Assembly (NCBI RefSeq): GCF_021172045.1
Contig: NZ_CP087164.1
Location: 3,286,001-3,350,000 of the forward strand
Reading direction: 5' to 3'
Source of the DNA: Capillimicrobium parvum
GTDB taxonomy: Bacteria; Actinomycetota; Thermoleophilia; Solirubrobacterales; Solirubrobacteraceae
Length of the DNA: 64,000 bases
The notes beneath the pieces are model-generated. The model made no database searches and had not been told where the DNA came from. It saw only the letters and a list, made by a program, of their open reading frames with translations. A program made the position numbers and the translations under genes. Below, piece by piece: positions 1,011-15,738 of the stretch (positions are counted from its first letter, which is position 1; the number at the start of each line of letters is the position of its first letter).

Positions 1011-1781
1011 TCACAGACCCGCCGGGTGCCGGACGGCGAAGCCGGAGCTCGAGCGGGCGGCCGGGCGCCACCGCGGCCCGCTCTCCCCCGCGCCCGATGT
1101 GTCGAAGCGCAGGCCCGCCACCACCATGTAGGCGTGGCCGCCGTGCCCGTACACGGAGATCCAGGAGCCCGGGCCGGCGTCGCCCCAGCGCGCGAGCGCG
1201 CCCGAGACGAGCGGCACGTCCAGCAGCCCCGCACCGTGCAGCGCATAGCTGACCGCTCCCGAGCAGTCGTAGCCGCGGTCCTCCCAGCGCTGATGGCCGC
1301 CGCCCCAGACGTAGGGCGTTCTGGTGATCCGGTTCGCCGCCGCGACGACCGCTACGACCTCGGGCGGGGCGCCCGCCGGGGCGACCGCCGTCCGGCCGTC
1401 CGCCGCGAGGGTCGCCGTGTCCGTGGGGACGGGCGCGACGCGCGCCTGCCCGCCGGTCGTAGCCGGGCCGGGCTCGATCAGCGAGCGCAGGGTGCGTGCC
1501 TCGGCCACGCTCAGGCGCGCGTCGGCCACGCCGTCGTGGCCCTGCTCGAAGCGCAGCACGCTGCGGGCCGTCCGCCGTCCGAACGTGCCGTCGACCCGCG
1601 TGGAGATCCCGATGTGCGTGAGCCAGCTCTGCAGCACCCGGACGTCGTGACCGCGCATGCCGACGTGCAGGGGCCGCTCGCCGAAGGACGCCGAGGCGGC
1701 GCTCGGGACGGCGAGGACGGCGCCGGCGGCCAGGGCAGCCGCCAGCGAGCGCGCGCGGACGCGCGCGATGGACGCAGGCAT
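1011..1781 (-). CDS. secreted NlpC/P60-type cell-wall hydrolase with peptidoglycan-binding domain
   Basis: 256 residues. Residues 1-31 form a signal peptide ending around A-S-A-S. Residues about 35-95 are a PG_binding_1 domain (GMRGHDVRVLQSWL, then the DGTFGRRT motif). An Ala/Pro linker follows, and residues about 140-225 are an NlpC/P60 papain-like domain with Cys173 in Y-D-C-S-G and His216 in GHGGHAYMV as the visible catalytic pair. It should cleave peptide stems of peptidoglycan outside the membrane. GAGGAG lies just upstream of the ATG. The leader carries a c-di-AMP riboswitch (separate entry), which fits the common pairing of that riboswitch with wall hydrolases in actinobacteria. Confidence 0.88.
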   Translation of the reverse strand: MPASIARVRARSLAAALAAGAVLAVPSAASASFGERPLHVGMRGHDVRVLQSWLTHIGISTRVDGTFGRRTARSVLRFEQGHDGVADARLSVAEARTLRSLIEPGPATTGGQARVAPVPTDTATLAADGRTAVAPAGAPPEVVAVVAAANRITRTPYVWGGGHQRWEDRGYDCSGAVSYALHGAGLLDVPLVSGALARWGDAGPGSWISVYGHGGHAYMVVAGLRFDTSGAGESGPRWRPAARSSSGFAVRHPAGL

Positions 1782-1799
1782 GAACGGACTCCTCTTTCG

Positions 1800-1936
1800 C
1801 TCGCGCTTGCGGGGTGAGCTGTCGGGCTCGCGCGGAAAGAGGCGCGCTACCCGCCCGTAGGCAGGATTCGCCCCATACGTCGATGGGTCCCCCGCCCGCC
1901 CCGGCGCCGGAACACGGCGGGGCGGTTCAGCAGTGT
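1800..1936 (-). promoter_or_regulatory. c-di-AMP riboswitch (ydaO-yuaA type)
   Basis: Read on the minus strand, the leader contains in order the hallmark blocks of the ydaO family: GCTGAACC near the 5' end, GGGGGACCCA, TGGGGCGAATCC, a GGGTAG segment, then CGAGCCCGACAGCTCACC and CGCAAGCG at the 3' end (about 1804-1811). These match the conserved core I know from the B. subtilis ydaO leader. The element ends about 20 bases before the ATG at 1781, so control of translation or a short terminator is possible. Boundaries are approximate. In this family c-di-AMP binding normally lowers expression of the downstream wall or osmotic gene. Confidence 0.9.
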
Positions 1937-2044
1937 GGTGTCGGCTGTCTCAACAACGGCGGCCCGGCGAAGTTGCGACACAGCGGCGTGGACGCCCCGG
2001 CACTCGGGGCCGCGCGCATGCGCGCGGCCCCGCCGGCCGCCGGC

Positions 2045-3028
2045 TCAGATCGCCTCGCCGGTCCGGTCGTCGAAGCAGACGAGCGCGAACGCGCCCGTGC
2101 CGCCGCCCTGGACCTTGAACGTGCGCGCCTTGATCCGCGGGTCCATGCCGAGGAACCAGCGGCCGTGGTTGTCCCACGTCCCCCCGTTGCCGACGTCGAA
2201 GCCGCCGACCAGGCCCTTCGCGTGCTGGCCGCAGCTCAGCTGCACGTCCCAGATGCCGTTGCCGCGGTCGAAGGCCTCGGTCGGACCGGTGACCTTCTTG
2301 GCGAACAGCTTGTGGACGTGCGGACCGGGCGCCGCCGCGCCGGTCTTGAGCCTCAGGCAGCGGCCGCCGGTGCTGACCTCGGTGCCCGGCTCCATCGCGT
2401 AGAACGCGTACGTCCAGCCGGCCAGGTCGTTCGTCGGCAGCGAGGCGAACAGCTCGGCGCTGCCGTGGTCCACGCTCCAGCTCGGGGCGATGAACGCCTC
2501 GCCCGGGGCGCAGCCGATGTCCGCCGGGTTCGATGTCACGGTGCCCGGCCCGCCGACGTAGTTACGGGCGTGGAAGGAGCCCGACAGCTGCACGTCGTTG
2601 GAGTGCGTGTCCGGCGCCGTCCTGCTGCCGAGGCAGGTGACGAACAGCTTGGCCTGCGCCTGATGCGTCGTGTTGTTGCGCAGCGAGAAACGGTAGGTGC
2701 TCACGTTCGCCGGGTCCGGGTTGAACGCCGTCGCGTAGAGCACGGTCACGCCGTTGGCGAGGTTCCAGCCGCCCGGGGGCGCCGTCGCGGCGTCGAGCTG
2801 GGCGTTGTAGTCGACCTGGTCGATGCGCCACATGCCGTCGGTGGCGATGTCGCCCCCGTTGCACGACAGCGTCTGCTCCGGGTTCAGGCCGGGCTGCAGG
2901 CTGACCTGCCGCTCGACCTTGTACATCTGCAGGTGATGGCGGCTGCCGGCGCTCGCCGAGCCCGTCGCCGCAAGGGCGGCGCCGGCGGCCACGATGGCCA
3001 CCGTCGCGATCCGTCCGTGGATCCTCAT
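2045..3028 (-). CDS. secreted protein with three Cys-pair modules, function unknown
   Basis: 327 residues; ATG at 3028 preceded by GGAGGA. Residues 1-27 are a signal peptide (cleavage after A-S-A). The mature part has six cysteines (56/132, 173/224, 266/318) that fall into three successive modules. Each module opens with a cysteine, passes an aromatic-rich strand, and closes with a V-T-C-L, G-R-C-L or L-V-C-F type strand, suggesting an internally triplicated beta fold with one disulfide per module. No catalytic motif seen. It stands alone on the minus strand upstream of the riboswitch-controlled hydrolase. I do not recognise the family. Confidence 0.8.
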   Translation of the reverse strand: MRIHGRIATVAIVAAGAALAATGSASAGSRHHLQMYKVERQVSLQPGLNPEQTLSCNGGDIATDGMWRIDQVDYNAQLDAATAPPGGWNLANGVTVLYATAFNPDPANVSTYRFSLRNNTTHQAQAKLFVTCLGSRTAPDTHSNDVQLSGSFHARNYVGGPGTVTSNPADIGCAPGEAFIAPSWSVDHGSAELFASLPTNDLAGWTYAFYAMEPGTEVSTGGRCLRLKTGAAAPGPHVHKLFAKKVTGPTEAFDRGNGIWDVQLSCGQHAKGLVGGFDVGNGGTWDNHGRWFLGMDPRIKARTFKVQGGGTGAFALVCFDDRTGEAI

Positions 3029-9567: not shown

Positions 9568-10797
9568 TCAGAACAGGCGCTGCGTGGCGAGCTTCGCCCC
9601 GGCGCTCAGCGCCTCGAGCTTCGCCCAGGCGACCATCGGGTGCACGCGGCCGCCGAGGCCGCAGTCCGTCCCGCCGATGACGTTCTCGCGCCCGACGGCG
9701 TTCGCGTAGCGCGCGATGCGGTCGGCGACGAGCTCCGGGTGCTCGATCACGTTGGTCGCATGGCTCACCACGCCCGGCACGAGCACCTTGCCGTCCGGCA
9801 GGTCCACGTCCTCCCACACCCGCCACTCGTGGTCGTGGCGCGCGTTGGCGGCCTCGAACGAGTAGCTGCCGCAGTTGATCTGCAGGAGCAGGTCGACGAT
9901 GTCCTTGATCTCGATGTCGGTCACGTGCGGCCCGTGCCAGCTGCCCCAGCAGCAGTGAAAGCGCGTCAGCTCCTCCGGGATCCCGCGCAGCGCGTGATTG
10001 AGCGCCTCGACACGGACCATGGTGAACCTGCGGTAGTCCTCGACCGACGGCGCCGGATCGAACTGGTCCCAGTTCTCCGCGAACGACGGCTCGTCGATCT
10101 GCACCATCAGGCCGGCGTTCGTGATCTCGAGGTACTCCTCGCGCATCACCTCGGCACAGGCCCAGACGAACTCCTCGTCGGTCTTGTAGTGCTTGTTGCC
10201 GATCCTCGACGCGCTGCCCGGCCCGACCGAGCACAGGAAGCCGTGGTCGATCCCGGCCGCCTCCATGCCCGCCTTCATATTGGCGATGTCGCGCTGCACC
10301 TCGGCCTGCCCGGTGTAGGTGAGCGGGCCCTCGACGACCGGCAGCGACATGCCGGGCTGGTCCGGGTCGTCCGCGCGGGACTTGGCCTTGACCGCGATGC
10401 CCGAGTCCGGGTCGGCGTAGGCCTCGGCAAAGAGGTTCCAGTCGCGCCGCTCGGGGAACGAGCTGAGCTGGATCGTCGACTCCGCCGGCGCCGACGGCAC
10501 GTGCCCCATGTCCGTCCACAGTCCGAGGCCGCCGAGCCGCTGGAACGAGTAGCTCCACCACGCGCCGTAGTCCACCTTGGCGCCCATCGTGTGCCCGTAC
10601 TCGCCGTCGTTGGGCAGGTCGATGCCCGTCTCCGCCTGCCGGCGGACGACGTCTATCGTGGCCTGGCGCAGCTCCTCGGCGTACTGCTCCTGGTCGTAGT
10701 CCTCCTCGTCGAGCCGCCTGCGGTTGAGCTCGATGAGGTCTTCGGGACGCGGCAGGCTGCCGGCGTGGCTGGTGAGGATACGGTCGCTGCTCTTCAC
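9568..10797 (-). CDS. cobalamin-independent methionine synthase-like (MetE C-terminal domain) zinc protein
   Basis: 409 residues. The GTG at 10797 was chosen because GGAGG lies just upstream and the family start (SSDRILTSHAGSLPRP) follows at once. The single TIM-barrel MetE/UROD-like domain carries candidate zinc ligands in order: His-x-Cys in RFHCCWGS, Glu in SFEAAN, and Cys in GTDCGLGG. This is the short COG0620-type family, lacking the N-terminal half of true MetE, which moves alkyl groups to or from thiols (epoxyalkane:CoM transferase belongs here). The real substrate is unknown. No cobalamin or SAM riboswitch precedes it. A link to the methionine operon at 13-15.6 kb is only a possibility. 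Confidence 0.8.
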   Translation of the reverse strand: MKSSDRILTSHAGSLPRPEDLIELNRRRLDEEDYDQEQYAEELRQATIDVVRRQAETGIDLPNDGEYGHTMGAKVDYGAWWSYSFQRLGGLGLWTDMGHVPSAPAESTIQLSSFPERRDWNLFAEAYADPDSGIAVKAKSRADDPDQPGMSLPVVEGPLTYTGQAEVQRDIANMKAGMEAAGIDHGFLCSVGPGSASRIGNKHYKTDEEFVWACAEVMREEYLEITNAGLMVQIDEPSFAENWDQFDPAPSVEDYRRFTMVRVEALNHALRGIPEELTRFHCCWGSWHGPHVTDIEIKDIVDLLLQINCGSYSFEAANARHDHEWRVWEDVDLPDGKVLVPGVVSHATNVIEHPELVADRIARYANAVGRENVIGGTDCGLGGRVHPMVAWAKLEALSAGAKLATQRLF

Positions 10798-11004
10798 CCT
10801 GGTCCTCCATCCGTCGACCCCCCGCCGAACGGGACGGCGGGCTGACTGCACGTGACGCGATGCTAAAGCGCGGCACCGAGTCCCGGATGGACCGCGCGCG
10901 TCTTTGTGCGCGCCGGGGCACGAACTGCCGCACGCATCGTCAAATCGCCCGCGCCCGCTGGACAGCCACGTTAGCCTGGGGCTGGTTCGGGTAGCGCATT
11001 CCGC

Positions 11005-13140: not shown

Positions 13141-13160
13141 GGGCGCCTGCCGGGGCGCCC
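13141..13160 (-). terminator. GGGCGCC stem-loop at the stop of the inositol-phosphatase gene
   Basis: GGGCGCC (13141-13147) pairs with GGCGCCC (13154-13160) across a six-base loop, immediately downstream of and touching the TAG stop. It could be the first of two tandem terminators with the hairpin at 13031. GC bias makes chance pairing possible. Confidence 0.33.
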
Positions 13161-13909
13161 TACGCCGAACGCAACAGCGAACGCAGATCCGCGACGCAGT
13201 CGGGGTGCCCGGCGAGGCTCCACCGGGTCGGCGCGCCGTCGTCGACGGTGATCGCCGCGCCGTCCGCCTCGCGCACGAGCAGCGCGCCGGGCAGCCAGTC
13301 CCAGTCGGCGGCGTCGGGCTGCATCCAACCGTGCAGGCGCCCCGCGGCCACCCACGTCAGCTCGAGCGTCCCCGAACCCGGCACGCGCAGGGCGCCCACC
13401 CCGTCGACGATGCGATCGACGACGCCGCGCACGCCGGGCAGCGCGAGCTTGCCGTAGCCCCACTGGACGGCGACGGTCGTGCGGTCCAGCGGCGCCGGGC
13501 CGCGCACCTCCAGCCGCCGGTCGCCGCACCACGCGCCGTGGCCGCGGGCCGCGCCGAACAGCTCGGCGCGCTCGGGGTCGAACACGGCGCACGCCAGCGG
13601 CCCGGCGCCATCCGTGAGCACGACGGCCGAGCACCACCCGGGGATGCCGTGCGAGTAGTTCAGGGTGCCGTCGATCGCGTCGATGACCCAGCGGCGATCG
13701 CCCTCGCCCGCCCGGTCCGTGCCCTCCTCGCCGAAGACGGCGTCGGCCGGCCGCGCCGCCGAGATCGCCGCGACCGCGGCCGCCTCGGCCTCGCGGTCGG
13801 CGGCGGTCACGACGTCGGTCGGGATCGCCGACTTCACCTCGATCTCCAGCGGCCCGCCGTGGTGGCGCAGGGCGACGGCGCCCGCGGCGAGCGCCGCCGC
13901 CCGCGCCAC
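13160..13909 (-). CDS. inositol monophosphatase family phosphatase
   Basis: 249 residues from the first canonical start (GTG at 13909). Metal-site motifs of the Li+-sensitive phosphatase family are present: GEEG near 60-63, W-V-I-D-A-I-D-G-T near 73-81 (Ala replaces the usual Pro) and AADWDWLPGALLV near the C-terminus. Substrate could be inositol-1-phosphate, histidinol phosphate or another small phosphate ester. The frame stays open upstream, and a CTG at 13939 overlaps the TGA of the sulfur-carrier gene; starting there would restore a more typical N-terminus (LSPTPLADLEVARAAALAAG) and four-base coupling. Third gene of the SAM-riboswitch operon. Confidence 0.85.
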   Translation of the reverse strand: MARAAALAAGAVALRHHGGPLEIEVKSAIPTDVVTAADREAEAAAVAAISAARPADAVFGEEGTDRAGEGDRRWVIDAIDGTLNYSHGIPGWCSAVVLTDGAGPLACAVFDPERAELFGAARGHGAWCGDRRLEVRGPAPLDRTTVAVQWGYGKLALPGVRGVVDRIVDGVGALRVPGSGTLELTWVAAGRLHGWMQPDAADWDWLPGALLVREADGAAITVDDGAPTRWSLAGHPDCVADLRSLLRSA

Positions 13910-13935: not shown

Positions 13936-14214
13936 TCAGCGCCCGCCGGCGACGGCCGGGAGGATCGTCACCTCGCCGCCGGCCGCGACCTCGGTCGCCA
14001 GGCCGTCGAGGAAGCGGATGTCCTCGCCGCCGACGTAGACGTTAACGAACCGGCGCAGCTCGCCGTCGTCGCCGGCGATGCGGCCGCGCAGCCCGTCGTA
14101 GCGGGCGTACAGCGAGTCGAGGACCTCCGCCACGGTGCCGCCCTCGACCGACGTCTCGCCATCGCCGCCGGTCGCCGACCGCAGCTGCGTGGGGATCTTC
14201 ACCGTCACTGCCAT
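13936..14214 (-). CDS. MoaD/ThiS/CysO-like sulfur-carrier protein
   Basis: 92 residues with the beta-grasp pattern of MoaD (VKIPTQLRSATGG, VAEVLDSLYARY, FVNVYVGGEDIRFL, GGEVTILPAVAGG). Carriers of this type are adenylated at a C-terminal Gly-Gly and converted to a thiocarboxylate that donates sulfide. Here the protein ends G-G-R, so one residue would have to be trimmed before activation, as in carriers processed by JAMM-type peptidases. The ATG overlaps the stop of the threonine-synthase-like gene, so the pair is made together. No molybdopterin or thiamine genes are nearby, which favours an amino-acid role as for CysO. Confidence 0.88.
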   Translation of the reverse strand: MAVTVKIPTQLRSATGGDGETSVEGGTVAEVLDSLYARYDGLRGRIAGDDGELRRFVNVYVGGEDIRFLDGLATEVAAGGEVTILPAVAGGR

Positions 14215-15476
14215 CAGATGCGCGCTCCCTGCTCGACCGTCGCCTCGAAGTCGTCGAAGGACGGGGTGATCTCGTAGGCCTCGAACGTGCCGCGCACGGC
14301 GTCGAGGGTCTTCAGTCCGTCGCCGGTGATGACGAGCACGACACGCTCGTCCGCGCCGATGTCGCCGCGCTCGGCGAGCTTCGCCAGCGTCGCGGTGGTC
14401 ACGCCGCCCGCCGTCTCGGTGAAGATGCCGGTCGTCTCGGCCAGCAGGCGGATGCCGGCGCGGATCTCGTCGTCGGTGACCGAGTCGATCCCGCCGCCCG
14501 ACTCGCGCGCCAGCTCCAGCGCGTACGGGCCGTCGGCGGGGTTGCCGATCGCCAGCGACTTGGCGATCGTGTCCGGCTTGACCGGGCGGCACACGTCGGC
14601 GCCCGCCTCGTACGCGGCCGCGACCGGCGAGCACCCGAGCGCCTGCGCGCCGTTCATCTTCGGCTGGTCGCCGTCCAGCAGCCCGAGCTCGGTCCACTCG
14701 GAGAAGCCCTTGGCGATCTTCGTGAACAGCGACCCGGAGGCGATCGGCACGACGCAGCGGTCGGGCAGCGTCCAGCCGAGCTGCTCGGCGATCTCGTAGG
14801 CGACGGTCTTCGAGCCCTCGGCGTAGTAGGGGCGCATGTTGACGTTCACGAACGCCCAGTTCTCGCGCTCGCCGGAGACCTCGGTGCAGAGGCGGTTTAC
14901 GTCATCGTAGTTGCCGGCGACCTTGACGAGGTGCGTGCCGTAGACGCCGGTCGCGAGGATCTTCTGCTCCTCGAGATCCGCCGGGATGAAGACGTAGGAC
15001 GGCATCCCGAGCGCGGCGGCCTGGGCGGCGACCGCGTTGGCGAGGTTGCCGGTCGAGGCGCACGCCAGCGTGTCGAAGCCGAGCTCGCGGGCCCGCTGCG
15101 AGGCGATGGCCACGACGCGGTCCTTGAACGAATGCGTCGGGTTGTGCGTGTCGTTCTTGACCCACACCTCGCCCAGGCCGAGGCGCTCGGCGAGCCGGTC
15201 GGCGCGGATCAGCGGCGTGCAGCCGGCGGGCAGCCCGACCCGCGACGAGTTGCGCCCGGATGGCCCGGGCGGTGCGTCGAGCGGCAGGAAGTCGCTGTAG
15301 CGCCAGATGTTCTGCGGGCCCGCCTGGATGCGGCGCCGCAGCGCGCTGACGTCGTCACCCAGCGCCGAGTGGTCATAGGCGATCTCGAGGGGGCCGAAGC
15401 ACTGCTCGCAGACGTAGCGCGCCTCGAGGGGATACCGGGCCGCACATTCCCTGCACTTGAGCTCTGTCGCCGACAT
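14214..15476 (-). CDS. threonine-synthase-like PLP enzyme, probable O-phosphohomoserine-dependent homocysteine synthase
   Basis: 420 residues; ATG at 15476 chosen for the GGAGG six bases upstream. An N-terminal zinc ribbon (Cys8/11 and Cys23/26) precedes a fold-type II PLP domain with Lys118 in NPTHSFKDR as the Schiff-base lysine; classical threonine synthases have NPTGSFKDR, so Gly is His here. A phosphate-binding ACASTGNLANAVAAQAA loop follows. Sequence alone would give threonine synthase (O-phosphohomoserine to threonine). The SAM-I riboswitch upstream and the coupled sulfur carrier instead suggest sulfide is added to O-phosphohomoserine to make homocysteine. I recall a route of this kind (MetM) from Streptomyces but cannot check it here. 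Confidence 0.82.
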   Translation of the reverse strand: MSATELKCRECAARYPLEARYVCEQCFGPLEIAYDHSALGDDVSALRRRIQAGPQNIWRYSDFLPLDAPPGPSGRNSSRVGLPAGCTPLIRADRLAERLGLGEVWVKNDTHNPTHSFKDRVVAIASQRARELGFDTLACASTGNLANAVAAQAAALGMPSYVFIPADLEEQKILATGVYGTHLVKVAGNYDDVNRLCTEVSGERENWAFVNVNMRPYYAEGSKTVAYEIAEQLGWTLPDRCVVPIASGSLFTKIAKGFSEWTELGLLDGDQPKMNGAQALGCSPVAAAYEAGADVCRPVKPDTIAKSLAIGNPADGPYALELARESGGGIDSVTDDEIRAGIRLLAETTGIFTETAGGVTTATLAKLAERGDIGADERVVLVITGDGLKTLDAVRGTFEAYEITPSFDDFEATVEQGARI

Positions 15477-15524
15477 GAAGAAACCTCCGCCGTTCAAGTG
15501 GCGAAGGTCTCAGGAACCTGCCGC

Positions 15525-15617
15525 CACATCTCACAGGAATTGGCACCTTTCCCGCGTGGCGTTCGCGGGGGGTTGCCGGGGTTTCGTCGGGCCAGTCCCT
15601 CCACCCCTCTGGATGTG
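15525..15617 (-). promoter_or_regulatory. SAM-I (S-box) riboswitch
   Basis: On the minus strand the leader reads AGAGGGGTGGAGGGACTGG, then CCCGACGAAACC and CCGGCAACC, a variable stem, AAAGGTGCCAATTCCTG, and a closing P1 made from CACATC (15612-15617) and GATGTG (15525-15530). These are the invariant blocks of the SAM-I core. About 50 bases separate P1 from the start codon at 15476, including the GGAGG, so a translational switch is plausible; I see no strong intrinsic terminator. It places the threonine-synthase-like/sulfur-carrier operon under methionine (SAM) control. Confidence 0.93.
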
Positions 15618-15738
15618 TCCAGCTATGTGGTCGGCAGGATACAGGTTCTCCTGCAATGCGCGATTCCGAGCGGCCGGACGGGTACCATGGTGGCGACGCG
15701 AATGGACCTGACGATGACCGACGAGCCGCGAAGTCCCA

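Follow-up and report, generated by a model that had tools for sequence, protein, structure and literature searches.

The window, a stretch of 64,000 nucleotides from the genome of Capillimicrobium parvum (Thermoleophilia, Solirubrobacterales), harbors a metM-metO operon that we read, with a probability of about 90%, as a unit of methionine synthesis in which homocysteine would be formed from O-phosphohomoserine and the sulfur of the carrier protein MetO, and which would be shut off when SAM is plentiful. This reading builds on the gene content, architecture, conservation, phylogeny and riboswitch observed here. The first-pass annotation had proposed homocysteine synthesis from O-phosphohomoserine and a carrier thiocarboxylate, which is very probably right in the light of the SAM-I aptamer, the separate clade of the enzyme, the second thrC of the genome and the CysO-type carrier.

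According to Hasebe et al. (2024; doi 10.1128/aem.01247-24), as cited in PMC12172450, Streptomyces albulus has a SAM riboswitch followed by metM and metO, the products of which form homocysteine from O-phosphohomoserine; the MetM route from Streptomyces that the first-pass annotation had mentioned exists. The operon described here shares with the S. albulus system the upstream SAM riboswitch, the threonine-synthase-like gene and the downstream carrier gene, but it stems from another actinobacterial class, and its carrier has one extra residue after the GG and overlaps metM. Based on the common architecture the unit therefore belongs to the known MetM/MetO system, first published in 2024, of which it represents a well-supported further case. 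It combines an enzyme from a clade distinct from threonine synthase (ThrC), a downstream carrier ending in GG plus a short tail, and a SAM riboswitch upstream.

The SAM-I leader and the metM-metO operon

The S-box that had been suspected at 15525-15617 is confirmed by a full-length match on the reverse strand (15523 to 15619), to which cmscan aligned RF00162 end to end (model positions 1-108) with 76.5 bits and an E-value of 3.5e-16 at a gathering threshold of 44.4. It is the only SAM-I match that the genome-wide search returned from the single contig of 5.95 Mb. The expression platform predicted by RNA folding is a hairpin at 15484 to 15507 (reverse strand), in which CCUUCGCC pairs with GGCGGAGG with one wobble and whose 3' arm contains GGAGG, the Shine-Dalgarno sequence directly ahead of the start codon ATG. 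A hairpin that hides the Shine-Dalgarno sequence is also found in seven close relatives (L034, L035, L036, L041, L042, L053 and L056). The sequence and constrained folds suggest an anti-sequestrator pairing at 15498 to 15527 on the same strand: the 3' strand of P1, GUGGCG (15522-15527), is complementary to CGCCAC (15498-15503), and this pairing excludes both P1 and the Shine-Dalgarno hairpin. Two constrained folds of the ligand-free leader are predicted to lie about 1 kcal/mol apart (-65.1 versus -64.1), as expected of a switch that is tipped by ligand binding. High SAM would stabilize P1 and leave CCUUCGCC free to sequester the Shine-Dalgarno sequence, so that translation would stop; this direction, off at high SAM, is inferred by analogy with known SAM-I switches. 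The scan used found no terminator-like site or U-run in the metM leader, and its control is therefore probably translational rather than transcriptional. The leaders of L137, L140 and L142 have a hairpin followed by a U-run plus a separate Shine-Dalgarno sequence, and their control looks transcriptional. The window contains one further riboswitch, a c-di-AMP element of the ydaO/yuaA type with 69.2 bits (1789-1942, reverse strand).

The first gene, metM (14214 to 15476, reverse strand, stop included), encodes a PLP fold-type II enzyme of 420 amino acids (TIGR00260, PF00291), which together with its position in the tree makes it a predicted O-phosphohomoserine-dependent homocysteine synthase. 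Its start is the ATG at 15476, and the longer mechanical reading frame begins with a TTG at 15497. The protein has four invariant cysteines (8, 11, 23 and 26), and the expected resemblance to threonine synthase with the motif NPTHSFKDR is borne out: the motif occupies residues 112-120 (DNA 15117-15143) with K118 as the PLP lysine, and the NCBIfam model TIGR00260 (threonine synthase) is passed with 272 bits at a curated cut-off of 167.1. TIGR00260 also labels other members of the MetM clade threonine synthase and fails to distinguish MetM from ThrC. The histidine in place of glycine, which the first-pass annotation had taken as evidence, does not carry this weight, because SAM-I-metM-metO loci of Acidimicrobiia keep NPTGSFKD. 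NPTH was therefore rejected as a marker of MetM, given the NPTG and in some cases NPTN of Acidimicrobiia. NPTGSFKD is present in 26 of the 80 named loci, mostly Acidimicrobiia, with a similar carrier and, where sampled, a similar SAM-I element.

The carrier gene metO (13936 to 14214, reverse strand, stop included) encodes a CysO/SAMP1-type sulfur carrier protein of 92 amino acids, as judged from PF02597, NF041918, its PDB relatives and the alignment. The proposed translational coupling is supported by a TGATG overlap, in which one base, an A, is common to the metM stop and the metO start; the GTG at 14697, with which the mechanical reading frame 13936-14697 begins, is not the real start of metO. 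The immediate surroundings of metM-metO showed no thiamine or molybdopterin genes, in agreement with the initial description. The best profile is NF041918 (SAMP1; 68.5 bits, above its cut-off), moaD_arch lies just under its cut-off, and the protein also falls into the PF02597/ThiS family. MetO does not match bacterial MoaD better than CysO/SAMP-type carriers, and its closest solved relatives, 4n6e_B and 3dwg_C, the latter M. tuberculosis CysO with CysM, are of the CysO type and not bacterial MoaD, the grouping that would have spoken against the original proposal. The C-terminus AVAGGR extends one residue beyond the GG, and the tails of homologues are mostly AVAGG, others being GGC, GGA, GGAR and GGSR. 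Four ThiS-family carriers of the same genome have a single residue after their GG, namely MetO (R), the CysO L025 (R), L014 (D) and L015 (T), which suggests a shared trimming step; the ThiS of this genome (L011) ends plainly in GG. An inositol-monophosphatase-like gene (13160-13909) was rejected as a third operon member, since it lies near metO in one close relative only among the loci compared, which had flanks of 1.5-2.5 kb.

MetM, true threonine synthases and the methionine genes of the genome

In the maximum-likelihood tree the window protein is placed apart from true threonine synthases, as the first-pass annotation had implied. The MetM clade has a support of 100/100 and a branch length of 2.24, and comprises the window protein and homologues from Thermoleophilia, Acidimicrobiia, Nitrospirota, FCPU426 and Nonomuraea; true ThrC stands apart at 99/96. 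Streptomyces MetM was absent among the matches listed in the plasmid collection, and Nonomuraea (Streptosporangiales), which groups within the MetM clade, served as a stand-in for S. albulus MetM. Nonomuraea gerenzanensis, a closer actinomycete relative of Streptomyces, combines a SAM-I element with a MetM of 55.5% identity and a carrier ending in AVAGG. At 23 positions with little or no variation among ThrC proteins, the MetM clade holds other, equally fixed residues, which means, as far as sequences can tell, that the function of MetM has changed yet remained constrained rather than decayed. All five ThrC-specific residues considered are replaced in the window MetM (Tth R160 by Y218, N188 by S247, T88 by L145, N157 by R215 and Q164 by S222); we take Tth R160 and N188 to be phosphate-binding residues of ThrC.

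The genome has a separate canonical hom-thrC-thrB operon elsewhere, in which hom and thrB were identified from their ORF sequences. Its thrC keeps all ThrC-specific residues and the protein groups with the ThrC of known structure from M. tuberculosis, B. subtilis, T. thermophilus and A. aeolicus. A second, canonical thrC, the absence of which would have weakened the initial proposal, is accordingly present, and metM is not the sole thrC-like gene. The other known entries into methionine synthesis are missing: MetA (PF04204) has no match in the genome, MetX (TIGR01392) yields only weak hydrolase-type matches of at most 25 bits compared with mostly 320-480 bits for the full-length MetX of relatives, and the HcyBio/DUF39 route (PF01837) is absent. 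MetM thus appears to be the only recognized de novo route to homocysteine and the organism's sole start for methionine. The absence of metX is not absolute, because the genome is 96% complete and a gene may, with low probability, have been missed. The genome also encodes two enzymes that score strongly with PF01053, one resembling CGS/CGL and the other methionine-gamma-lyase; as an acylhomoserine source is lacking, neither can provide the conventional entry into methionine synthesis. A cluster at 4.26 Mb comprises CysO, CysM, a rhodanese-E1 MoeZ and a JAMM peptidase; this MoeZ is the only clear ThiF-family protein of the genome and the JAMM peptidase is single as well. The sulfur-loading machinery is therefore present, and MetO would have to share it. 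Two divergent MetE-C-terminal-like proteins were noticed, one in the window about 3.4 kb downstream of metM (9568-10851, reverse strand; PF01717, 40.9 bits) and another near a CGS/CGL-like gene (G000:C1:296605-297867).

Proposed route and competing readings

From these genes we infer the substrates of MetM, the transfer of sulfur and the trimming of the carrier. The products of hom and thrB, homoserine dehydrogenase and homoserine kinase, would supply O-phosphohomoserine from elsewhere in the genome. The single arginine after the GG of MetO would be removed before E1 activation, most likely by the lone JAMM peptidase, whereupon MoeZ would activate the C-terminal GlyGly and load sulfur as a thiocarboxylate; the MoeZ and JAMM peptidase of the CysO cluster thus probably also serve MetO. 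MetM would then exchange the phosphate of O-phosphohomoserine for the MetO sulfur, and the resulting homocysteine would be methylated by a methionine synthase.

A protein-thiocarboxylate homocysteine pathway of Wolinella succinogenes (Krishnamoorthy and Begley, 2011) is named in PMC5764234. This pathway reportedly uses a ThiS-like carrier, trimmed by a peptidase, as the sulfur source for homocysteine, and its enzyme is reportedly a MetY-type sulfhydrylase with O-acetylhomoserine as substrate. It thus resembles the present proposal in the carrier-fed synthesis of homocysteine and differs in having a MetY-type enzyme instead of a ThrC relative acting on O-phosphohomoserine. The carrier is of the same type as in the CysO-CysM-MoeZ-Mec system of M. 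tuberculosis (PDB 3dwg), the cluster of which also occurs in this genome; CysM, however, makes cysteine from O-phosphoserine, whereas MetM is closer to ThrC. Like ThrC (TIGR00260; PDB 2d1f, 6cgq, 1uim, 2zsj), MetM is a PLP fold-type II enzyme and presumably acts on O-phosphohomoserine, but it differs in its separate clade, the 23 fixed replacements, its regulation and its neighbors.

The observations that count against homocysteine synthesis are the TIGR00260 label, the activities of a Microcystis homologue, the genomes with both MetM and MetX, and a sister group devoid of an adjacent metO. The label and the homologue would suit a second threonine synthase, or a threonine synthase/deaminase, under SAM control that balances threonine against methionine, with the carrier as a mere neighbor: MetM scores above the TIGR00260 cut-off, and the Microcystis homologue, which has 51.6% identity to S. 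albulus MetM, was reported to act as threonine synthase and deaminase and to show no clear homocysteine synthesis (PMC12172450). We nevertheless hold this to be very improbable, given that a canonical thrC, complete in its ThrC-specific residues, lies between hom and thrB, that the MetM clade has its own fixed residues at 23 positions, and that metO is retained beside metM; it would also leave the genome without a known route to homocysteine.

The two remaining readings keep MetM in methionine synthesis and change its sulfur donor. MetM might use free sulfide together with O-phosphohomoserine, and MetO might serve cysteine synthesis, tRNA thiolation or the like, as would be allowed by the SAM-I-metM loci that, in several families of this class, have no metO next to them; the tight TGATG overlap, the carrier adjoining metM downstream at 78 of the 80 named loci of the genome-wide scan, and a separate CysO-CysM set in the genome make this similarly hard to credit. 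Least probable of all is a cystathionine synthase that condenses O-phosphohomoserine with cysteine in the manner of plant CGS, with a PF01053 enzyme then acting as cystathionine beta-lyase. The two strong PF01053 proteins would be available for this, but reverse transsulfuration or the breakdown of methionine would account for them just as well, and the conserved carrier would be left without a role. The preferred reading, homocysteine synthesis with MetO as sulfur donor, shows how an organism devoid of MetA, MetX and HcyBio could make methionine, and would directly connect one branch of the methionine pathway with O-phosphohomoserine, an intermediate of the threonine pathway.

Distribution of MetM and MetO

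MetM is present in 197 of the 300 sampled genomes of the class. Among the matches listed, all 122 class genomes with both MetM and SAM-I, compared by hand between the tables, have the aptamer 43-174 nt upstream of metM on the same strand. SAM-I directly upstream of metM also occurs in Acidimicrobiia, an FCPU426 MAG and Nonomuraea; it was found at 18 of 20 sampled named loci from Solirubrobacterales, Acidimicrobiia, FCPU426 and Nitrospirota, the two exceptions being Nitrospirota. With the thresholds used, MetM and MetX co-occur in 70 of the 300 genomes, among them two of the genus of the window organism, while 127 have MetM only, 60 MetX only and 43 neither. The negative association (odds ratio 0.40, p = 2e-4) is uncorrected for relatedness, and strict mutual exclusion was rejected on the basis of the 70 genomes with both. 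Because of this co-occurrence MetM is not simply a substitute for MetX and need not be the only route.

At nine loci (L076 to L081, L087, L091 and L096; families f7, f10 and f11), which form a branch inside the MetM clade within the same class, metM has the SAM-I element but no metO next to it. One example is L079, where the gene immediately after metM is homocysteine S-methyltransferase-like (1257-2171, reverse strand); this neighbor supports homocysteine as the product of MetM and does not favor a particular sulfur source.

The distribution of MetM/MetO is broad and mostly unannotated, which suggests that hundreds of "threonine synthase" annotations, made with an NCBI model that cannot tell the two apart, may represent homocysteine synthases. 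The loci of Acidimicrobiia and relatives (L146 to L181) encode a MetM with NPTGSFKD or NPTNSFKD and a carrier, with SAM-I where sampled. One of them is Acidithrix ferrooxidans (L166), which has SAM-I, metM and metO and belongs to the same family as Acidimicrobium; this bears on a gap noted by Price et al. (2018; PMC5764234), who listed Acidimicrobium ferrooxidans without a known route to homocysteine. We see about an even chance that the wider MetM clade provides Thermoleophilia and Acidimicrobiia, Acidimicrobium ferrooxidans among them, with their main and so far unrecognized route to homocysteine, and that a derived branch of Thermoleophilia dropped its own carrier and uses CysO or free sulfide.

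Three MAGs named as Chlamydiae, Acidobacteriota and Bifidobacterium breve (L115, L155 and L156) contain MetM loci that are 60-75% identical to that of the window; these organism names are probably binning or naming errors. In families g14 and g35, many genomes of two genera have two MetM matches each.
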